Shown here one piece after another: positions 1,973-34,913 of a stretch of 41,411 nt of DNA (position 1 is the stretch's first letter; every line of letters begins with the position of its first letter). Made by a program: the position numbers and the translations under genes. The notes below the pieces were generated by a model. That model saw only the letters and a program-made list of their open reading frames with translations, was not told the DNA's origin and did no database searches. Origin of the DNA: a virus; IMG/VR virus record IMGVR_UViG_3300037882_003012, positions 1 through 41,411 of that record. The stretch is one strand, 5' to 3'.

Positions 1973-4231
1973 TTATTTGACCTCACAAAAACCCCCAGCA
2001 CACGCCACCTCACCACTGAGTGTAGTGCCATCCTCTTCTTCAAACAAAGACGTATAATCCACTGGCTGGTAGCCACGAAGGATGGCGTTCCACCTCTGCT
2101 CATCAGCCTCCGTTACGACAGCCTCGTTGGGGGCGAAAGCGTAATCTTTATCTCCCGTGCTTGCTAAAAGAGATACCCCAGTGAATAACTCTCGGTTTAC
2201 CCACAAGTATTCTGCCACTGACTCCCACTCATTAGCTTGAACAGTGACCGTATTGGACACGTTGTGATTGAGCCCCGGGGAGTTACTGCTGTCTTGGGTA
2301 CCAGTAAGTACCCAATTTTGCTGTGTTGACTTGACCATATCCAAGAACTGAATAGCCTTGATATCTTCTTTGACTATAGCATTCACTGGGGCTACCACAG
2401 GAAATTCAATCACCCACTTACCGTCAGGTTTTCTCACACAAGCATGTGGGTTTTTTGCACGAAAAGCTTGAAATACTGGTTCAAGTTCATCTGCTGTGAC
2501 ACGGCGAATGTACCTACGTGCGTGGTGCGCGTGATGCCCAGACCCTACCGACCCCAACTCCAAAGAGGTTGTTCCCGAAGGCTTTACGCATGTTGTGCGA
2601 GCCGCTGGGTGAATCCCTAGTCGGGCTGCATACTCCGTGTTCCACTCCTTAACTTTTAGAGCTACCTTAACTTGGTACTCAGGGTTACATGATACCTCAG
2701 GAGCATCTAACATTCCAGTCATACCGATACCTAGTAAAGCATCCCTCTTAGCTATCTGCTCTGAGACCCACCCTAGATAAGGCATATTTGTATATGAGGC
2801 CTGCAAAGTACCGATAAGAGTGGCAGCGTGAGCCGCCGACTCAAAGTCCTCGTAGGAGGTAAACTTAGCTGCGTTGATCTCACATAAGTTACAAAATGAC
2901 CAGCCTGTGTACCTCTGACCTACCGCGACTGGCTCACCTTGTTTAGCTAGGTCATCCTTCATCTCAGAGGTTACCGTAAGCACAGGGAAGAGACCTATTT
3001 CTGCGCAGGGATTAGTACCATAGTCGTAATTGTCTGTGAAGAAAAACCCAGGCTCCCCCCATTGCCTGGTCATCTGGAAGATGCGCTTGAACTGCTTCTT
3101 TTTGACGTCGTCCCGCTTGAGCACTACAGAGTTGTTTGCGTTAGCAAACCAAGGGTCGGTCTCGTACCACTTGCCAGTCTTGGCAAACATCATCTCACTA
3201 TCGTCGAGGGAGAACAGGCTGATCATAGCCGAGCGTCGGATACCCCCTGATAGTACCGCATCAGCGGCATGACACATGATCCGATGACACTCAATAGGGC
3301 GAAGTTTACGCCCCTGAGCAGACAGTAGCACGCCTCGGATCCTCCCTAAGGACTCCTTGAGTTTTCGATGCCCTGGAGCACGCCCACCGGAGGTCTTGAG
3401 TGGAGACCCTGCGGGTCGGATCTTGTAGAAGCTGAACTCAAGATTAGTACCGTACTGAAAACTCTCGACTAAGGCTTTGAGGGCATCCGCCCAACCCTCG
3501 ATCGTGTCCTCTACCACGTGATGGACGACTTTTTTCTCATCGATATAAGAGACCTCAGGGAGCTTCTCTACATGGTCAAACTGAACTGAGTACCCCACGC
3601 CGCAACCAGAGAGAAGGAGGAACAAAGCTTCGGAGAACACCCCCATGCGGTCTATTAGGGAGTACGTGCAGTTGTAAATCCTATTGTGATTCTGCAAGAT
3701 TGCGTCACCCCCAAATTGCATTGACCTCATCGATGGTAAGACGCGCTTCGCTCGCACTAGGTCAAATGCGGACTTGATCTCATCCCCCATCTCAGGGAAC
3801 CTGGTCAGGTGCATGCCTTCTACGCGTGCAACAGTCTCCTCATATACCTCTCTACGCTTCAGATCCGGGATATAACGGGCGTACTTGCTTGCATGAATAT
3901 AATCGGAAAGGCCTTTAGGGTCGACAGCCTTTTCACGGGCCTGGCGAAGGTCTTGTCGGCGGCTTCTGTATACTATAAAAGTCTTGGCGACTTTGAACTC
4001 CTTGTGCTTCATCAGAGCGGTCTCAACCGCATCTTGAATAGTCTCGACGTCTACGACCTCGTCTTGCAGGGAGTGAAGAACGGAGTTTACCACCGTAACT
4101 ACCTTCTTCTCATCTACCGGACCCACCTCTAACCAAGCCGCCCTTACGGCGACCAGCAATTTTGCTGCATCGAATGGTTGGAGGGTTTCCCCGTCCCGCT
4201 TACGTGCATATTGTACGTTGACGCCTAACAT
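1973..4231 (-). CDS. Adenosylcobalamin-dependent (class II) ribonucleotide reductase
   Basis: Converts ribonucleotides to deoxyribonucleotides with coenzyme B12, supplying dNTPs for phage DNA synthesis. It has 752 residues from ATG at 4231 behind AGGGGG. An ATP-cone occupies roughly residues 6-95. The catalytic core carries NCTYSL (C188), SGCGVGYS (C210), the radical-site motif NPCAE (N407, C409, E411), FCNLCEIN (447-450) and VKPSGTTS. The tail ends CAGGFC, the CX4C pair that passes electrons from thioredoxin or a similar donor. Length and motifs match the monomeric RTPR-type enzyme; no separate small subunit or B12 gene is seen here. The adjacent clamp-loader and ligase genes fit a replication block. 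Confidence 0.93.
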   Translation of the reverse strand: MLGVNVQYARKRDGETLQPFDAAKLLVAVRAAWLEVGPVDEKKVVTVVNSVLHSLQDEVVDVETIQDAVETALMKHKEFKVAKTFIVYRSRRQDLRQAREKAVDPKGLSDYIHASKYARYIPDLKRREVYEETVARVEGMHLTRFPEMGDEIKSAFDLVRAKRVLPSMRSMQFGGDAILQNHNRIYNCTYSLIDRMGVFSEALFLLLSGCGVGYSVQFDHVEKLPEVSYIDEKKVVHHVVEDTIEGWADALKALVESFQYGTNLEFSFYKIRPAGSPLKTSGGRAPGHRKLKESLGRIRGVLLSAQGRKLRPIECHRIMCHAADAVLSGGIRRSAMISLFSLDDSEMMFAKTGKWYETDPWFANANNSVVLKRDDVKKKQFKRIFQMTRQWGEPGFFFTDNYDYGTNPCAEIGLFPVLTVTSEMKDDLAKQGEPVAVGQRYTGWSFCNLCEINAAKFTSYEDFESAAHAATLIGTLQASYTNMPYLGWVSEQIAKRDALLGIGMTGMLDAPEVSCNPEYQVKVALKVKEWNTEYAARLGIHPAARTTCVKPSGTTSLELGSVGSGHHAHHARRYIRRVTADELEPVFQAFRAKNPHACVRKPDGKWVIEFPVVAPVNAIVKEDIKAIQFLDMVKSTQQNWVLTGTQDSSNSPGLNHNVSNTVTVQANEWESVAEYLWVNRELFTGVSLLASTGDKDYAFAPNEAVVTEADEQRWNAILRGYQPVDYTSLFEEEDGTTLSGEVACAGGFCEVK

Positions 4232-4243
4232 TCCAAATTCCCC

Positions 4244-5224
4244 CTAAGTAGCTACTTCAAGGACTACTAACTCCACTAGCGTTCGTCGGTGACTGGTCCT
4301 CTTTAGTTCCACATCCAATTTAGATAATTTCTGCATAGTCTGGATCAGGGCTGCAGCCTTATGCTTGGCTGCTTGCACCTGCACCGTCTTCTGGTACCTA
4401 AAAGGGTGCATAGCTAGTCTGGAGGCTATCTCCTCCGCTGGCCGCCCCTTACTTATCATATACACGGCAACGAATAACTTCTCCACCCCCTTCATAAGGG
4501 AGGACAAGAGTGAGATCGAGGGATCTTCAGCCGCGAACCGGTACAGGAGGTTCAGCCCATCCATAGCGGCCCTTTTGTTCTTCATTAAGGCCGCGTCCAC
4601 TACAATCCATGGGTCTGTGCCCGCCGATCGAGAAGCCACCATTGCGATTTTGTGTAGGTCCGCGGTACCGTTGTTCCCTACAAGGAGTCTGAGCTTGTTA
4701 AGCTCATTCGTTATCCTGTGTAGATCCCCTCCCGTAAGACGAAACAGGGCGGTAGCGCAGTTTAGGTCTAACCCGAAGCCTAGCCTCTTAGCCTCGTTAC
4801 TCGCCCACTTAGCTACCTCGTTGTTATCGTCCCATGTCTTTAGTTTCTTATGCTCACGAAGCGTGACTACCCCGGGGCCACACTTCGCCCATAGAGCGGG
4901 AGCCTTCTCGGTGCGTGAGATACCAGCGAGCACAGAGAAGAGGTCCTTCTTCTGTTTACTACCCAAGTACTCCTTCAGCCTCTTCTCTGACTTGATCTTG
5001 TGGATATTATCCACTATAACGAGCCTAGGTCTAACCGTTCCCGTGTCTAAGTCTACGGATACCGTCTCACACGCCGAAACCACTTGGTCGTCAGTGACCT
5101 CTGACCCATCCAGTATGGAGATGTCCCGCCCGGGATACTTGGATAGATGGTCCAAGTCCCTGTCGAGGAAGAAGCCTTCCTCCCCAAAAGACAGCACGAC
5201 TGGGGAAGCGATCCGAAAGGGCAT
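4244..5224 (-). CDS. holA: DNA polymerase III delta-like clamp-loader subunit
   Basis: Encodes 326 residues from ATG at 5224 behind GAGG. Delta subunits wrench open the sliding clamp within the clamp-loader complex. The protein has the delta layout: an N-terminal domain without a usable Walker A, a mid-domain lid with LTGGDLHRITNELNKL (the classic GGDLxxLxNELxKL delta signature, about residues 170-185), and an all-helical C-terminal domain. It lies 12 nt upstream of the reductase and 8 nt downstream of delta-prime, so loader subunits are co-transcribed with dNTP supply. The symbol follows the bacterial family; phage versions are divergent. Confidence 0.85.
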   Translation of the reverse strand: MPFRIASPVVLSFGEEGFFLDRDLDHLSKYPGRDISILDGSEVTDDQVVSACETVSVDLDTGTVRPRLVIVDNIHKIKSEKRLKEYLGSKQKKDLFSVLAGISRTEKAPALWAKCGPGVVTLREHKKLKTWDDNNEVAKWASNEAKRLGFGLDLNCATALFRLTGGDLHRITNELNKLRLLVGNNGTADLHKIAMVASRSAGTDPWIVVDAALMKNKRAAMDGLNLLYRFAAEDPSISLLSSLMKGVEKLFVAVYMISKGRPAEEIASRLAMHPFRYQKTVQVQAAKHKAAALIQTMQKLSKLDVELKRTSHRRTLVELVVLEVAT

Positions 5225-5232
5225 ACCGCGCC

Positions 5233-6180
5233 TCAGCCGCTAAAAGTGGTGGCTAGGGCTGTCTTGATTTGGAACGCTAGATTCACGTGAGTCGACTCAT
5301 TGTCAACCCAAACCGTGCGCAAATTTCCCCACAAGGAGGACCACTTCTGCGCGGGGGCTTTACTTTGAATCTCAGTCATGTCTTCCGTCACGTCTCGGTT
5401 AATTACACGTTCCGGTATGGTTAACACCAGCAACAAGTCGTGCACGATAGCTATCGCACACTGAAGTACAAACTGTAAGTCCTTACTCAACTCGTCTATA
5501 CCCCCGAAGGCCGAAGGCAAATCCCCCACGGAAGCCAGACGAAGTATCTCCATAACCTTATTCCTGATCACTATACGGTTAGTGCTCCAGTACCGAGTGG
5601 CCTTACCTATCGAACCTTCGCTTAGGCGAGCGTACACAAGAGCCTTATCGGAGTCCCGCTCAAACTTTGACATACGAGAATGAACAAAGGACTCGGGTAG
5701 CTTACGGTAATCCACTCTACCACAACGAGACCTGATAGTCGGTATTACACGGTCGTACGATTCAGCTAAAAGGAAGAACCGAACGAAATCCGCTGGTTCC
5801 TCCAAGGTCTTGAGGATTGCGTTAGCTGCCGCCGGGGTCATATGATCCGCCCCCTCAACCAGAAAGAACCTGAGGGGTGACGCTACCGGATACTGGTACG
5901 ACTCAGAAATCGCCTCCCGAATAGACTCCACCCCCAAATCCTTACCCTCCTCGGGCTCAACAAGGAATACGTCCGGATGGGTACCTAAGTCATACTGGGT
6001 TACTTCGGGGCTATTTAGCCCACGAGAAGCTACCAGAATTTCTCGTATGGCAGCCTTCACTGAAGCCTTACGTCCAATACCTTCACCACCCACCAGGAGC
6101 AAGGGGTTTTTCAAATCTCCGGAAACTATTCTCCGGAGTACCTTTACCGCCTCATCTTGCCCGACAATATCACTTAACAT
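5233..6180 (-). CDS. Clamp-loader ATPase-like subunit (delta-prime/DnaX type)
   Basis: Encodes 315 residues from ATG at 6180, preceded by AGGTGG at proper spacing. A TTG at 6216 is possible but would overlap the upstream gene by 47 nt. The protein starts MLSDIVGQDEAV, typical of AAA+ clamp-loader proteins, then LLVGGEGIGRKAS, in which the P-loop GKT is replaced by GRK. An APLRFFLVEGADHM-like Walker B region, ILKTLEEP and the SRC motif (TIRSRCGRV) follow. The altered P-loop makes it more like delta-prime than an active DnaX subunit. A separate DnaX ATPase would be expected elsewhere in the genome. Confidence 0.85.
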   Translation of the reverse strand: MLSDIVGQDEAVKVLRRIVSGDLKNPLLLVGGEGIGRKASVKAAIREILVASRGLNSPEVTQYDLGTHPDVFLVEPEEGKDLGVESIREAISESYQYPVASPLRFFLVEGADHMTPAAANAILKTLEEPADFVRFFLLAESYDRVIPTIRSRCGRVDYRKLPESFVHSRMSKFERDSDKALVYARLSEGSIGKATRYWSTNRIVIRNKVMEILRLASVGDLPSAFGGIDELSKDLQFVLQCAIAIVHDLLLVLTIPERVINRDVTEDMTEIQSKAPAQKWSSLWGNLRTVWVDNESTHVNLAFQIKTALATTFSG

Positions 6181-6370
6181 GGCCACCTGGCAATAGGTTA
6201 GGACTCCGACCTTCAACCCGCTCGAAGTACATCGTCAACATGTAATGCTGTCCGCACTTCTTACAAACGAACCTACTGACCCCTTGACCGCTCATACCAA
6301 GTAGGCCGCCACACTCAGGTATATTACACCGAGGGGCGCCAAGATTAAAAGGTAAGTCAGATGGCGACAT
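6170..6370 (-). CDS. Zinc-ribbon miniprotein
   Basis: Encodes 66 residues from ATG at 6370; a GTG at 6403 would add 11 residues and overlap the previous gene more. The pattern C-x4-CGG (CNIPECGG) followed by C-x2-CG (CKKCGQ) about 20 residues later is a four-Cys zinc ribbon, the kind used to bind nucleic acid or a protein partner. It overlaps the clamp-loader gene by 11 nt and the preceding zinc-ribbon gene by 14 nt, so it is part of a translationally coupled chain. Function unknown; a role beside the clamp loader is only suggested by position. Confidence 0.75.
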   Translation of the reverse strand: MSPSDLPFNLGAPRCNIPECGGLLGMSGQGVSRFVCKKCGQHYMLTMYFERVEGRSPNLLPGGHVK

Positions 6371-7091: not shown

Positions 7092-8681
<1,590 letters not shown>

Positions 8682-9077: not shown

Positions 9078-9890
9078 TTACATATTTGACGGGACTACCT
9101 CTAGCTTATTTTTAGATAGTAATCGCCACCTTCTAAGTCTTACCGAAGCCAATGACCGCTCTAAAAATACCGAGGCACTCTTGAGGTCATGTTTCACCAC
9201 ATACTCATCTTCATGTGCTTCCCATGTGCGCCGACCCTCAACTTTTCTCATTGTTAGTGGACGAACCCACTTAAGTACTTCTAAGTATGATTGGTGCTTC
9301 CTGTCCAAGCTTATACCGGCTGCGCCATAGAAACAGCTGGCTACCGCCTGAGCATCTTCTTTCCACACACAAATGTTATATACTTGGTCTCTCGTGTTGG
9401 GGTTAGTTCTCTTCAACTTCCCTATCACCCCATAAAGAAACTTTTCGTATTCTTTGGCCATGACAGCACTCTTAGTTACGAATGATAGGAAAGGAAATCC
9501 TTTCTTAGTGTAACCTAAAGACCCGTCCCCATCAAATAGGCCTCGGAAGTAGTCTGGAGCAGAGTACTCAAAGGTAGGTGGGGCGATAATCTCAGACTTA
9601 TCCCCAGTAGGGAGCCCGAGAGCCAATAGAGAGTTTCTCACCTCTAAGTCATACACAGTCCAAATAGCACTTTTAGACTCCAGTTTGAAGTTGGTGTCTC
9701 TAGTGCGATCACGTATACTAGAGTACACAGGGAATAACCCCTGAAGTCTCTCTAAAATTTGACGATCTGACGCCCGAATCTCAAGCGTAACTTTACCCTT
9801 ATTAAGAGGGCCGGCCCAATGGTGAGCATCAGCCTGCAAAAGGCCTACAACGTAAGATAAGGTATTGTTGTCTAGTGCATGCTGTAACAT
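9078..9890 (-). CDS. Free-standing LAGLIDADG homing endonuclease
   Basis: Encodes 270 residues from ATG at 9890. Two LAGLIDADG helices are visible: YVVGLLQADAH near residue 13 and YFRGLFDGDGSLG near residue 113, each ending in the acidic catalytic residue. The spacing fits a single-chain two-repeat enzyme that cleaves a long asymmetric target and copies its own gene into uncut alleles. A basic, helical C-terminus (SVRLRRWRLLSKNK) could contact DNA. It sits 6 nt downstream of rtcB and is not flanked by intein splice residues or an intron-like RNA, so it is an intergenic mobile gene. Its first Asp is followed by Ala rather than Gly. Confidence 0.85.
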   Translation of the reverse strand: MLQHALDNNTLSYVVGLLQADAHHWAGPLNKGKVTLEIRASDRQILERLQGLFPVYSSIRDRTRDTNFKLESKSAIWTVYDLEVRNSLLALGLPTGDKSEIIAPPTFEYSAPDYFRGLFDGDGSLGYTKKGFPFLSFVTKSAVMAKEYEKFLYGVIGKLKRTNPNTRDQVYNICVWKEDAQAVASCFYGAAGISLDRKHQSYLEVLKWVRPLTMRKVEGRRTWEAHEDEYVVKHDLKSASVFLERSLASVRLRRWRLLSKNKLEVVPSNM

Positions 9891-22721: not shown

Positions 22722-22784
22722 AGTACTTCAACTTTACAACAAAAAGATATTGCGCTCCCAGACTTCTGGTTGTACTATCCCCGC

Positions 22785-23570
22785 ATGACCAAGTCAATGA
22801 TTTTTGCGGCACTCTTCCTCATAACGTCCTCCGCAATGGCTCAAGACGTAGTGATGACTGAGTACGAAACTAAATTCGCCTACACCGGAAAAACCCATGC
22901 CCCAAGGGCGGCCAATATCGAGTTAGCTGCGTCACTTCTTGACGTGTCTGCCATCGAACCTGGTGGCGAATGGTCTTTCAACGAGGCGGTGGGACCCAGG
23001 AACGAGAAGCGGGGCTTCAAGAAAGCCAAAGCTATCATTCACCGAAGGCTCAAGAAGGACTTCGGAGGAGGTGTCTGTCAGGTTGCTAGCACCCTCCATG
23101 CTGCCGCCCTTAGCGCGGGCCTGAGCATTATTGAACATCACCCACACTCTAGGGTAAGTGCCTACATTCATCCATCATTAGACGCAACCGTAGTCTGGGG
23201 GCAAATGGACCTACGTATTCAAAATCCATACCCGTTCAAAGTATGGATTGACACGGATACTTCCACCCCAGGGGTACTGAAGGTATCCATATGGGGCGCC
23301 AAGAAGCCTAACGTAACTTTGTTCTTCCAGATACAGGAAACCACGGACTTCGAGTCTGTCACGTGGTATCGGAATGACTGGAAGAAAGGACGCCGCAAGG
23401 TACAGGAGCCAGGGACCCTTGGGCACAAACTCACTCGCTTCAGGGTCTTCAAGGACGGGAGGGGCGTCTCCAGCTGGGAAAAGAAGACCTTCGCATACCG
23501 ACCCTCAAGTAGGATCGTACTACTAGGGACGAAGGAAGAGGAAGTGCTCGTCAGTTCGACGCCCCGCTAA
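22785..23570 (+). CDS. Secreted VanW-family protein
   Basis: Encodes 261 residues from ATG at 22785; TTG 22770 is upstream but would spoil the signal peptide. MTKSMIFAALFLITSSAMAQ is a good signal sequence cleaved after AMA. The mature protein has the VanW signature: GGEWSFNEAVGPRNEKRGF, then GGGVCQVASTLHAAAL, then HHPHSR and IQNPYPF. VanW domains are linked to cell-envelope and glycopeptide-resistance contexts; the conserved Cys/His pattern hints at a catalytic role, but the reaction is not established. A phage copy may modify the envelope during infection or lysis. GGTTGTACTAT lies just before the start, a relaxed form of the leaderless box. Confidence 0.9.
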   Translation: MTKSMIFAALFLITSSAMAQDVVMTEYETKFAYTGKTHAPRAANIELAASLLDVSAIEPGGEWSFNEAVGPRNEKRGFKKAKAIIHRRLKKDFGGGVCQVASTLHAAALSAGLSIIEHHPHSRVSAYIHPSLDATVVWGQMDLRIQNPYPFKVWIDTDTSTPGVLKVSIWGAKKPNVTLFFQIQETTDFESVTWYRNDWKKGRRKVQEPGTLGHKLTRFRVFKDGRGVSSWEKKTFAYRPSSRIVLLGTKEEEVLVSSTPR

Positions 23571-29970: not shown

Positions 29971-32900
29971 TCATGCAGAAAGACTACCATTACCCCCGTC
30001 CGTAAGCATAGCCCAAAGTTGCTTACCGATGCTCAATCCCGCAAGGTAGTCCTCCTCACCTACACCTGCCGCTTGCAACGCACTAGAAGGGTCCAATCCA
30101 TCCGTGGATACAGAGACCGCGACCTTCTTCAAGAGAAGATCATACATCTGCACCTGAAGAGTGTTGGCGTACACTGGGCTGAAGATTCGAGTCTCCTTCT
30201 TCTGCCCGATTCGGTCTACGCGGCCGATAGCCTGCCTGAAGATTACGGGGTTCACCCCAGGATTCTCCATCCAGATTTCGGTGGCGAAGTGAACCAAATT
30301 GTTCAAGCCCGTCTGTATACACACTGGATTCGTAACCAAGATGCGGCGTTTCTTCTTGACTACCTCCTTTTCGATCCACGACTGACGCTTACCCGTCGCC
30401 ACCTTATCCGCGTACAGGATCGGGACAGTCTCCCCCAACCGCTCCGAAATGATACGCGAGTATCGCGCGAGCAGGTTCACGTGCCAGGAGAAGACCATCA
30501 CATTGCGCCCCTCGGCAAGCTCGCTTGTGATCTTGTCGATCAACCACTGCTCCTTAGGAAGCAGCTCCGACTTAGATAACGGGGTTGCAGCCGATACCAG
30601 ACCACCCCCCACGGACTCAGGATAGCGAATCTCGAACACTCCCCCATCCGTGTTGCCAGTGTCGCTTGTCGCCCGGTCTAGGTAGCTCGGAAGCTCCGCA
30701 AGCTGCCCAAAGAGCTTGCCCGCCTTCTCTTCGTCAAAGCGATCCTTCTTGATGGCCGCGATCAAATCCTGCTGTAACCTAGTGTAGTTTTTGGCCTGAT
30801 CCGCCGAAGGCTGAACGTGGCACACCTCTTGTCTACACGGAGGCAGGTCGATAGCCAAGTCGGTCTTGTGCAAGGTGACCGAGATAGTGAGTAGGTGGCG
30901 AAGCAGGAAAAGAGGCAGGAGCCCAGGGGCGTTACCCACTACGCGCTCGGATCGAGTCACGCGATCGGACATCGAACCGAACTCGACAACTTCTCCTGTC
31001 TGCTTGTCTCGCTCTTCCAGGACGCGCTTACGATACCCGTAGCGATCAATGAAGCGCTGTTTATCGTCACGGCTGAATTCCTCACGGAACTTGGGAGACA
31101 AAGCCCACATGTTCGCGAATAGACTCTCAGCGTAACCATTCATGATGGTACCCGTCTGAAGGATCGTAGGGATACCCAGCGCCGTCAACCGATGAGCCGA
31201 TACCCCCTGAGCTGAGTTATCTGAGCTATACTCGTGACCCTCATCTAATACGATTAGGTCAAACAGTTTAGGGTGGCGTTTGGCGATGTGTTGGGCGAGC
31301 GCAACGCGCCTCGGTTCCGGTACCGCCTGGAAGAGTATCTCACCGCACTCTTTTGTGAACCTGAACCGAGCCAGCTTGGTCATCGGATGAATCAAACGCG
31401 TGGCCAGCCCAATGCTGTTACGACCCTGTTCTCCGACCGTAAGCTCCCCGCCCATCCACTTAACGGGCAGGTTGGCGACGGTCGCTTCCGCTTCATCCCC
31501 GTCCACGGCCTTCTTGACCTTCTCCTTGAAAGCCGTCCACGGATTCCAGTAGGACAGGTTAGTCTTGTCCGCGTACTGCTCAACGAGCTGGGTTTGACGC
31601 TCGCTACCGGGCTCAAGTAGGAAGAGTATGTTGCGCCCAAACGAATCATGGGAGGAGTAGGTTTCTGCGTCTAGGTACTTACGGGCTACTCTCTCAATCT
31701 GATCGTCCGTACCTGCGAGGGCGAGAGCCATGACGATAGCCTGTTGCGCCGCTTCTACATGTTCCGTATCCAACAAGGCCGCTTCGATAACGTAATCTAG
31801 TGTACCCTTCTGGAAGCCATGGAACTTGGTCTCCCCCTCGCTTGAGTGAAGGCTCGTGTAATGAGCCACCCGAAGTCGTTCATGCCTACTGCGAAGTAGT
31901 TGTGCTACCGCCGACGACTTAGGGTTGTACTTCGAGATAGTCCTGGCATAACCCATGCATTGACGAGCGAATAGGTTGGAAGCGAGAAGTGTCTTTTCCT
32001 CACAACGTGAGCGCTTCTTCGCCATGTCTACGCTAGGCGTCTCGCTACCGCACTTAGGGCAAACGGGGCCCGCTCCAACCCAAGCATGCCCGAGCTTGGC
32101 TGTCTCTCGCGAGAGCACCGAAATGACCATACGGTCGGACTTATCTTTAGAGAGGGAATCCAAGTCTCCCACCGTCTGAAGAATGCGAACCTCAGCCTCA
32201 GGGGCAACTACCTTGATCTCGTTCGTCCAGGACTCAAGAAGGTGGGGAGGGCACATAACTAATGGACGAGTGGATTTGATCGTTTTCGCGGTCACTAAGG
32301 CGCAGCTAGTGTTATGAGTAACTGTGAAATCCCCCAGAAGGAAACGGCCATCACCGTCTAATTCAAACCCAGCATAATAACCTTCACCGAGTGGTTCGAC
32401 CTTTATACCATTCCGGGTTACATGAGGCATTCTTCTGTACCCTGATTCCACATCTAGTTTGCGGTTTCGTCTTTGTGTTGCCCTAGGGGTAGCTTTTTTA
32501 CGAGGAAGTAACAGAGGCAATGTACTGAAGTCTCCACTCAAGCATACGCGCCAGTAAAGGTCACCTTTTTCCCCTCTACGAGAGGATTTGTACTCTGGTG
32601 TCATCACAGCCCTGAAGCCTAAAGACCTAGCTACAAAACACACACCATCTGACCATGGTCTACGTTTTTGTATGAAGTCGTAAACCCCATTACTTAAACT
32701 ACCGTCTGAGTCAAAAAATCCTGCTAAAAAGGCTTCTCTTACTTCCCTACTCCCGTAGAGCACTTCGGGAGGTAAGTATATCCCATCTCTATATGCTTCT
32801 CGGAGTAAGTCCAATACTGGGTTGGGCTTACCTCCAGTACAACCAGTAGTGATACGGTAGGTCGCACACCCCTCTCTCTCACAATCAATATTTAACCAAA

Positions 32901-34809
32901 GCCCATAAGATTCCGCAAAAGACTCAAGATACGACACAATCTCTGAGTCTCCCGTGGTGACTGAAACACCCGCTAAACCGCAGTTGGTTACTTCTTTAGT
33001 GCCGTCACCATACCACAAACCTAAAAAGTATGGATCTAACTTTGGAGGAAAGGTAGGAGAGAAGTTTATACCTGCCTCAGGAGTAAACTGTTTAAACTCT
33101 TCTTTCGGGTGTGTAAGACGTCCACCTTTAGACAGTTTCCTCCGGAGGCGGCGTGTGGATATGTACTCCTGTAGAGGAATGTCAAATATATCGTCACTCA
33201 TAGTGTGAACTAAAGTGAGTATATGTGCATCATTGCACTCCCAAGGGTCTCCTTTTGTAGGGATTATACGAAACAAAGGGCCTACTCCTCGCGTGGTACC
33301 TAGAACCTTACGAGGTAAACTGTCGGGGCCCATAAGAAGGTCTCCAGTCTGGACCTTCTCTACAGGGATAGCCCTACCATCGTACTTCATGACTAAAGTA
33401 CCTAATCCGAGACACTTGCCCGATCCGATTTCCCCCAGTAGGATAGCTGCCTTCCCTTTCCTACCTGCTTTCGAGCAATCTACCCCGCCGAGGAGTTGGA
33501 CGATTGCCTTCGTAGCGTGCGCTTGAGCCGTGAACATTTTACGAGAGGACGACGCTAGCTCTACTTTAGGAGCATCCCTACGTGGGTCATACATGATGGG
33601 ACATTGGCGTTCCATTACCTCCATCAAGCTTTGCCCATAATGCTTGAGAAGGTCTGCCACGCCCATGGACGATACTTCGACCTTGCGAGACTCATCCGAA
33701 CCCGTGCGTAAAGTATGATACTTGTGAGTATCAAGATCCAGAACCGTCGTTACCAACTTTGGTTGCTGAACCTGGACCACGGACTTGACTTCGCCCGCCT
33801 TGTTCCTTTTCTCCTCAACCGTGCGATACTCTCGATCGAAAACGCCCTTGACTAGTAGAGGAGGAAGTGTAGAAGCAGGGTCCGTAGGTTCAATTCGAGC
33901 GCCGTTGAAGAGCCCCGAGGCGATACCCGCCGCAATATGGGCGGGCCTAGGAGGCGTAGCTACGGGATAGGTTCGAAGTAGAAGCTCTTGTACCGGTAGG
34001 TCCGGGATAACGCCGGGAACGGGCACTAGGGCGCCCCCTCGCGTACTCTGGTACCACGGGCGTAGCTTCCCCAGAAGGGTCTTCATATCGATCGGGCGAA
34101 GTCTCCATTCCTCTAGCCCTTCATGGTAGGACTTCGAAGAAGGTACCTTAAACTGTCTAGTCTCCGAAACCGGAAGCTCTAATATAGACGAGGCATCGGC
34201 TGACCAAGCCATGACTTGACCCACGAGCTGTGGGTCTGGCTCAAAGAGCGTTGCGCCCTTTCTCGCGATAAGAAGAACCTGCTTGAAGATCTTGAAGTCT
34301 TCCTCAGGGAATCGAAAGCAGGTTAGACTGTCATATTCCTGAGCCAGTAGGTTAGCCGAAGCCTTAAGGGCGTAAAACGGAACCAGGAAGATCAGGTAGC
34401 CGCCGTCCATCAAGACGGGCGTAAAACGCTCCAGGAAGCGCTGCTCAAGGCGTCCGTGAATCGGATCCGTATCGTAGGGCGGATTAAGGAACAGGACGGA
34501 AATACCGTCCTTTCCGCCCTTTGAGAAGGAGACTCGAAAAGCGTCCCCGTGAACTAGATTCTTCTCGCTTGGCCAACCAAGAGCTTCTTTAGCTTTGGCG
34601 TAGCGCGTAGCTTCCATCTCACAAGCGTAGATTTGATTCTCGCCCGCGAGAGCCTTTATCGCTTCCGCCTCGCCTGCACACGGGTCCATGTACGTGACCT
34701 TACAATCGTAGGACGATTCAGGTACATCGAATAGACCCGCAATACGCGGAAGTAGGTGAGGAAATGTGGGGTAGTACCCCCCGACGGCGATACTTTCTGG
34801 GCGTGCGAT
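29971..34809 (-). CDS. DNA methyltransferase-SNF2 helicase fusion with intein, ATC start
   Basis: Annotated from ATC 34809 rather than ATG 34689. The 40 extra codons read (M)ARPESIAVGGYYPTFP, the normal N-terminus of this methyltransferase family, and AGAGGAGG lies 6 nt upstream. The product has 1612 residues. Order: SAM methyltransferase (DPCAGE near 42, NPPY 109-112); a P-loop GEIGSGK-T split by an intein at 466-833; then SNF2 motifs DEGHEY, TGTIMNGY and QAIGRVDRIGQ near the end. A zinc-like CPKC...C cluster follows the intein. Spliced length is 1244. Methyltransferase-helicase fusions in phages, such as P1 DarB, protect DNA from restriction, so an anti-restriction role is likely. Confidence 0.85.
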   Translation of the reverse strand: MARPESIAVGGYYPTFPHLLPRIAGLFDVPESSYDCKVTYMDPCAGEAEAIKALAGENQIYACEMEATRYAKAKEALGWPSEKNLVHGDAFRVSFSKGGKDGISVLFLNPPYDTDPIHGRLEQRFLERFTPVLMDGGYLIFLVPFYALKASANLLAQEYDSLTCFRFPEEDFKIFKQVLLIARKGATLFEPDPQLVGQVMAWSADASSILELPVSETRQFKVPSSKSYHEGLEEWRLRPIDMKTLLGKLRPWYQSTRGGALVPVPGVIPDLPVQELLLRTYPVATPPRPAHIAAGIASGLFNGARIEPTDPASTLPPLLVKGVFDREYRTVEEKRNKAGEVKSVVQVQQPKLVTTVLDLDTHKYHTLRTGSDESRKVEVSSMGVADLLKHYGQSLMEVMERQCPIMYDPRRDAPKVELASSSRKMFTAQAHATKAIVQLLGGVDCSKAGRKGKAAILLGEIGSGKCLGLGTLVMKYDGRAIPVEKVQTGDLLMGPDSLPRKVLGTTRGVGPLFRIIPTKGDPWECNDAHILTLVHTMSDDIFDIPLQEYISTRRLRRKLSKGGRLTHPKEEFKQFTPEAGINFSPTFPPKLDPYFLGLWYGDGTKEVTNCGLAGVSVTTGDSEIVSYLESFAESYGLWLNIDCEREGCATYRITTGCTGGKPNPVLDLLREAYRDGIYLPPEVLYGSREVREAFLAGFFDSDGSLSNGVYDFIQKRRPWSDGVCFVARSLGFRAVMTPEYKSSRRGEKGDLYWRVCLSGDFSTLPLLLPRKKATPRATQRRNRKLDVESGYRRMPHVTRNGIKVEPLGEGYYAGFELDGDGRFLLGDFTVTHNTSCALVTAKTIKSTRPLVMCPPHLLESWTNEIKVVAPEAEVRILQTVGDLDSLSKDKSDRMVISVLSRETAKLGHAWVGAGPVCPKCGSETPSVDMAKKRSRCEEKTLLASNLFARQCMGYARTISKYNPKSSAVAQLLRSRHERLRVAHYTSLHSSEGETKFHGFQKGTLDYVIEAALLDTEHVEAAQQAIVMALALAGTDDQIERVARKYLDAETYSSHDSFGRNILFLLEPGSERQTQLVEQYADKTNLSYWNPWTAFKEKVKKAVDGDEAEATVANLPVKWMGGELTVGEQGRNSIGLATRLIHPMTKLARFRFTKECGEILFQAVPEPRRVALAQHIAKRHPKLFDLIVLDEGHEYSSDNSAQGVSAHRLTALGIPTILQTGTIMNGYAESLFANMWALSPKFREEFSRDDKQRFIDRYGYRKRVLEERDKQTGEVVEFGSMSDRVTRSERVVGNAPGLLPLFLLRHLLTISVTLHKTDLAIDLPPCRQEVCHVQPSADQAKNYTRLQQDLIAAIKKDRFDEEKAGKLFGQLAELPSYLDRATSDTGNTDGGVFEIRYPESVGGGLVSAATPLSKSELLPKEQWLIDKITSELAEGRNVMVFSWHVNLLARYSRIISERLGETVPILYADKVATGKRQSWIEKEVVKKKRRILVTNPVCIQTGLNNLVHFATEIWMENPGVNPVIFRQAIGRVDRIGQKKETRIFSPVYANTLQVQMYDLLLKKVAVSVSTDGLDPSSALQAAGVGEEDYLAGLSIGKQLWAMLTDGGNGSLSA
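32311..33414 (-). mobile_element. Intein with LAGLIDADG endonuclease in helicase P-loop
   Basis: 368 residues beginning CLGLGTLV with the splice Cys directly after GEIGSGK, and ending FTVTHN before extein Thr. Block A/B features (PVEKVQTGDLLMG, then CNDAHILTLV) and block F/G at the end are present. Endonuclease motifs FLGLWYGDGT and FLAGFFDSDGSL lie between. The junction restores GEIGSGKTS, a working Walker A. P-loops are a favoured intein site because homing targets there are conserved. No frameshift is seen, so splicing and homing both look intact. Confidence 0.92.
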
Positions 34810-34829
34810 GACGAACCTCCTCTTTCGAG

Positions 34830-34913
34830 CTACGTTTCAAAGTCTAACTGACGAGCCATGTATTCTGCAAGGTCTTTTCTCTTAGTCTTTAACCGCCGCG
34901 AAGAAGCTAGCAA
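34830..34913 (-). CDS. Possible 27-residue ORF
   Basis: From TTG 34913 to TAG 34830, overlapping the end of the ATPase-like gene in another frame. The basic, helical sequence ends KDLAEYMARQLDFET and looks protein-like, but the start codon is weak and there is no clear ribosome site. Listed for completeness; it may be noise. Confidence 0.2.
   Translation of the reverse strand: MLASSRRLKTKRKDLAEYMARQLDFET

Follow-up and report, generated by a model that had tools for sequence, protein, structure and literature searches.

A putative AUC start codon behind an extended Shine-Dalgarno site in a phage methyltransferase-helicase gene

The methyltransferase-helicase gene and its open frame

The window, by which we mean the whole stretch of DNA that was analysed, is a 41,411-base virus record (IMGVR_UViG_3300037882_003012), on the minus strand of which a DUF6094 methyltransferase and a SNF2-type helicase share one reading frame (Table 1). 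The methyltransferase part belongs to DUF6094, matching Pfam PF19587 (E = 1.4e-18; 67.2 bits against a gathering cut-off of 22.8) and containing motif X, motif I, and the NPPY motif; GGYYPT, DPCAG, and NPPYD were conserved in an alignment of relatives, and a Foldseek search with a model of this part matched the fold to M.BseCI and M.TaqI. The helicase part was identified by SNF2 (E = 2.1e-6) and phrog_62 DNA helicase (E = 8e-35), and its Walker A loop (GEIGSGK / TSC) is interrupted by the intein, which is absent from the relatives L002 and L003.

Several other genes of the window were noted in passing. A phage-borne GroEL, an RtcB-type RNA ligase, and a ribonucleotide reductase lie close together (7092-8681, 9897-11303, and 1973-4231, minus strand), two adjoining genes at 4244-6216 (minus) match the C-terminal domain of DNA polymerase III delta and delta-type clamp-loader domains, and a VanW-like protein with a G5 domain, unusual in a phage, is encoded at 22770-23570 (plus). 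A second LAGLIDADG-type gene of 270 aa, located between other genes at 9078-9890 (minus), is probably a free-standing homing endonuclease.

Table 1. Coordinates of the features at the methyltransferase-helicase locus, with anti-Shine-Dalgarno energies in kcal/mol
Feature	Position	Strand	Remarks
DUF6094 methyltransferase and SNF2-type helicase	29971..34809	-	1,612 codons from ATC; intein inside
Intein, 368 aa, LAGLIDADG endonuclease	32311..33414	-	Hom_end (E = 3.6e-10), Hom_end_hint, LAGLIDADG_3
First canonical start, ATG (Met41)	34687..34689	-	Weak Shine-Dalgarno (-3.9); within predicted strand 39-42
GGYYPT, methyltransferase motif X	34765..34782	-	Absent from a product begun at ATG 34689
ATC, proposed start (AUC) of the methyltransferase-helicase	34807..34809	-	Read directly; aligned with ATG in 21 of 23 relatives
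Spacer of 72 nt, upstream gene to ATC	34810..34881	-	Compared with gaps in relatives
Shine-Dalgarno AGAGGAGG	34816..34823	-	Pairing extends to AGAGGAGGU; anti-Shine-Dalgarno duplex -12.6
Mini-ORF, MARQLDFET and stop	34830..34859	-	ATG 34859; without Shine-Dalgarno (-0.9)
Upstream stop of the frame, TGA	34837..34839	-	Closes the methyltransferase-helicase frame 5'
Upstream gene, 270 aa	34882..35694	-	No family; just 5' of the methyltransferase in relatives too

Read directly on the minus strand, the frame runs from TGA through AAC GTA GCT CGA AAG AGG AGG TTC GTC to the ATC and continues with GCA CGC CCA GAA AGT ATC GCC GTC GGG GGG TAC TAC CCC ACA TTT CCT CAC CTA, and its translation from ATC 34809 is (I)ARPESIAVGGYYPTFPHL. 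The absence of any in-frame ATG, GTG, or TTG between TGA 34839 and ATC 34809 upholds the claim of an earlier note on this DNA that the frame opens after a stop without a canonical start, the first of which, ATG 34689, lies 40 codons downstream of the ATC.

Conservation of the N-terminus and the start column

Relatives were gathered by a search with the helicase half, which returned L002 and L003, by tblastn, which returned a 485-kb phage, and by alignment searches, which returned further viral and bacterial-contig relatives; a search with the short N-terminus alone found none. Among the 23 relatives with a readable start, a set that includes a few near-duplicates (L015/L016) and in which the start of L024 lies one codon later, the column occupied by ATC in the window holds ATG in 21, TTG in one (L017), and ATA in one (L013, which is the same contig as L003). 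An AUH codon thus stands at a homologous AUG position, and aligning homologues, a check named by the earlier note, confirmed its observation that the ATC falls exactly where ATG is expected. In a tree of the family the window grouped with L010 (support 81/89) and L013 with L015 (99/98). Since the tree separates window and L013, each beside a relative with ATG, the AUG was most likely lost independently in the two lineages, to judge from these sequences. The contig of L003 also offers an alternative in-frame TTG (2977 in L013) with a weak Shine-Dalgarno site.

The relatives share the N-terminus M-A-R-x-E-S-V-A-V-G-G-Y/F-Y/F-P-T. Over codons 2-25 the window and L010 are identical at 19 of 24 residues, with 12 codons synonymous and 6 first-, 5 second-, and 15 third-position differences, and the pattern was similar in 11 other comparisons; as the changes are mostly at third positions and the residues are kept, this stretch is translated, selected sequence. 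Comparison with homologues from other phages showed residues 2-40 to be conserved protein, so that the frame upstream of ATG 34689 is indeed the conserved methyltransferase N-terminus that the earlier note had taken it for.

In the family profile, GGYYPT of this segment falls opposite G..FTP of M.BseCI and GGEFFTP of EcoR124II HsdM, and we take it to be motif X, part of the cofactor pocket of amino-methyltransferases. An AlphaFold model of the methyltransferase part (mean pLDDT 70.6, which is middling; residues 11-60 averaging 72-89 per ten-residue block) places Met41 in a predicted strand, residues 39-42, just before the SAM-binding loop DPCAG. The model thus suggests that a start at ATG 34689 would cut the fold, with motif X lost together with half of a core strand, and no canonical start yields the conserved protein. 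The earlier note was right that such a start would lose GGYYPT; its description of the start as lying within the SAM-binding motif needs amending to the strand just before the DPCAG loop. It is very improbable that the protein begins at Met41 or that the gene is a decaying pseudogene: ATG 34689 is the first canonical start and has a Shine-Dalgarno site of sorts upstream, but residues 2-40, motif X included, are conserved at the protein level, Met41 sits inside the predicted core strand, and the frame is whole over its 1,612 codons. Most gene callers take only ATG, GTG, and TTG as starts, so the protein would be annotated without motif X.

The Shine-Dalgarno site and the remodelled spacer

The 3' end of AGAGGAGG lies 6 nt before the ATC, as the earlier note had stated, and with pairing extended to AGAGGAGGU (spacing 5) the anti-Shine-Dalgarno energy of -12.6 kcal/mol is the strongest among the 39 listed ORF starts of the window (next, -10.2) and also exceeds those of the 23 relatives (next, -11.0), a value that 0.13% of random positions attain; the other candidate starts, ATG 34859 and ATG 34689, reach -0.9 and -3.9 kcal/mol. 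AGGAGG with an ATC 4-8 nt downstream is present three times in the window (2.0 expected); the motif proves nothing by itself, and it is its position at the family start column that is beyond chance. The Shine-Dalgarno site is unmasked, as the region around it folds less than shuffled sequences do (z = +1.8). Widespread use of AUH starts in the window was considered and rejected: in a scan, a strong Shine-Dalgarno site preceded just three further AUH codons, which lie 2, 5, and 20 codons ahead of a canonical start. To our knowledge, no homology supports these three codons.

A single wrong base at 34807, in a genome with an ordinary ATG, would also account for the ATC; one base change yields a fully ordinary gene, the locus is known from a single metagenomic contig, and database searches found no near-identical second record of it. 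Such an error is possible because there is only one record and because true AUG-to-AUH switches are very rare, with one AUU among 61,358 ancestral AUG codons in surveyed genomes (PMC5622118), a rarity that counts against the AUC reading; with an estimated error rate, a genuine change from AUG to AUC is, a priori, roughly as improbable as an error of this kind. We nevertheless regard a sequencing or assembly error as unlikely, given that the surrounding large genes are intact, that an independent relative has ATA in the same column, and that compensation would predict both the remodelled spacer and a Shine-Dalgarno site of such exceptional strength.

The spacer sets the window apart from most of its relatives. 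The upstream gene, for which tblastn found matches in 18 of the listed loci at 28-62% identity, usually overlaps the methyltransferase slightly or ends no more than a few nt from it in insert-free relatives, with gaps of up to ~70 nt in L011, L017, and L023. Other relatives carry inserts at this boundary. In L003 a 243-aa gene (2863-3594) with NUMOD3 (Pfam), and with an N-terminus that reads as GIY-YIG-like in sequence without a Pfam GIY-YIG match, separates the upstream gene from the methyltransferase, and its TAG stop overlaps the ATA (ATAG) at the methyltransferase start place. In L025 (~2263-3000) a decayed relative of this endonuclease gene, broken after its N-terminal part, runs into the methyltransferase start, where the ATG is intact, and in L024 a 111-aa ORF occupies the same place. 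Because of these three inserts, the sequences mark the boundary as an insertion hotspot. The record of L003 holds two further matches related to the NUMOD3 gene (L008 and L009).

The 72-nt spacer of the window gave no protein match to a homing endonuclease gene or remnant, and a search of Rfam found no intron or other known RNA in it. Its DNA similarity to the tail of the L003 endonuclease is not significant, being reached by ~4% of random segments, and a tandem duplication of flanking genes was rejected as its source, the best match extending to only 8-9 nt.

The mini-ORF in the spacer ends 20 nt before the ATC and begins with ATGGCTCGTC, the first 10 nt of the gene in the nearest relative, L010; it may be what is left of the former 5' end, or may encode a leader peptide. 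This identity invites the reading that ribosomes start at ATG 34859 (ATG GCT CGT), skip 50 nt, land on CGC (34803-34801), and resume at CCA 34800, making MARPESIAVGG, which matches the family. The insert between MAR and PES would then be a new bypass element, a mobile-element scar skipped by recoding and not by ordinary initiation. The gap is exactly 50 nt, as is the out-of-frame insert of T4 gene 60, which likewise arose beside a homing endonuclease (PMC5009743), and both have a Shine-Dalgarno-like site ahead of the landing region. Most hallmarks of gene 60 are missing here, however. Its take-off and landing codons are matched GGA codons, whereas CGT and CGC are synonymous for Arg and not identical; CAG, not a stop, follows the take-off CGT, and TAG comes only as the seventh codon after it; no take-off stem-loop is apparent (fold z = +1.8 against shuffles); and the three residues made before take-off leave no room for a nascent peptide acting in the tunnel. 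ATG 34859 itself has no Shine-Dalgarno site either, and we give bypassing very little credence.

The mini-ORF also overlaps the open frame from 34836 to 34830, where a -1 frameshift could feed ribosomes into it, as could read-through of TGA 34839. Either route is scarcely credible: the overlap (TTT GAA ACG TAG) has no slippery heptamer, the start of the mini-ORF is without a Shine-Dalgarno site, and the strong site at the ATC would go unexplained.

Initiation at AUC and comparison with known systems

Taken together, these sequence comparisons make it probable that AUC 34809 is where ribosomes begin the methyltransferase-helicase, in genuine initiation of low efficiency rescued by the extended Shine-Dalgarno site. 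The ancestral gene of the family would have started as ATGGCNCG, immediately after the upstream gene. An insertion at the hotspot, perhaps of a mobile element since lost, may have parted the two genes and placed new sequence before the methyltransferase gene, after which the old ATG could have become ATC, with the strong Shine-Dalgarno site compensating. In the cell, AGAGGAGGU, its near-ideal spacing, and the weakly structured RNA would hold the 30S subunit on an AUC that IF3 normally rejects, and initiator tRNA at this codon would produce fMet-Ala-Arg-Pro-Glu-Ser, an N-terminus like those of the relatives, with the output of the methyltransferase-helicase presumably reduced. Re-initiation after the stop of the mini-ORF, which itself lacks a ribosome-binding site, could add to initiation at AUC; a contribution of this sort is conceivable because re-initiation without a Shine-Dalgarno site is of the IF3-sensitive kind (PMC2268962).

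Decoding of AUC by a dedicated phage initiator tRNA appears highly doubtful. Four relatives have roughly 35-48 tRNA genes each (L038-L044; records of L003, L010, L014, and L015), and an initiator tRNA with a GAU anticodon was rejected as a candidate in that every initiator-like tRNA-Met gene found in these relatives reads CAU. The window has one tRNA-Val, and the virus's own tRNA cluster lies outside the contig. One of the initiator-like tRNA-Met genes (L042, 3382-3454) has C1:A72 and a GGG/CCC stem.

Initiation at AUC in this gene would be an unexpected link between a putative AUC start and a mobile-element hotspot, and a phage example for which both homology and a Shine-Dalgarno site unmatched in the set speak; a relative adds a second, independent case, in which AUA has replaced the AUG of that column. 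These observations suggest a rule by which an insertion at a gene boundary can cost the gene its AUG and a strong Shine-Dalgarno site keeps the gene in use with an AUH codon, and the AUC and AUA cases could serve as natural reporters for discrimination by IF3.

Rare as it is, AUC initiation here seems to lie within known rules, in which an AUH start is paired with a compensating Shine-Dalgarno site; weak starts tend to have stronger sites (PMC5622118). In Staphylococcus aureus, infC and ccpN (both AUA) and cvfC1 (AUU) likewise combine an AUH start with an extended, strong, and properly spaced Shine-Dalgarno site, and AUA and AUU starts of this kind yield ~10% of the output of AUG, with ccpN reaching up to 30% in rich medium (PMC13009471); those starts belong to cellular genes, are for the most part conserved, and were demonstrated by ribosome profiling, whereas ours is a phage gene known from sequence, in a family where AUH is not general. 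The start of infC, the gene through which IF3 regulates its own synthesis, is ATT in E. coli and, as here, ATC in Streptomyces (PMC5472188); IF3 would be expected to limit the ATC of the window too, though a methyltransferase-helicase would not be expected to take part in such feedback. Streptomyces sigR, which starts at GTC behind the very extensive ribosome-binding site AGGAGGTG and is limited by IF3, was also recognised because no canonical start fits (PMC5472188); it differs in its codon and in having a regulatory role established by experiment. As to the boundary, the free-standing GIY-YIG (seg) endonucleases of T4 (PMC2988022) resemble the inserts of L003 and L025 in being intron-less genes of GIY-YIG type between two phage genes. 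They differ from the L003 endonuclease, which abuts the next gene with its stop overlapping a start place where AUG is now AUA, and from the window, where the 72-nt spacer stands in place of any such gene.
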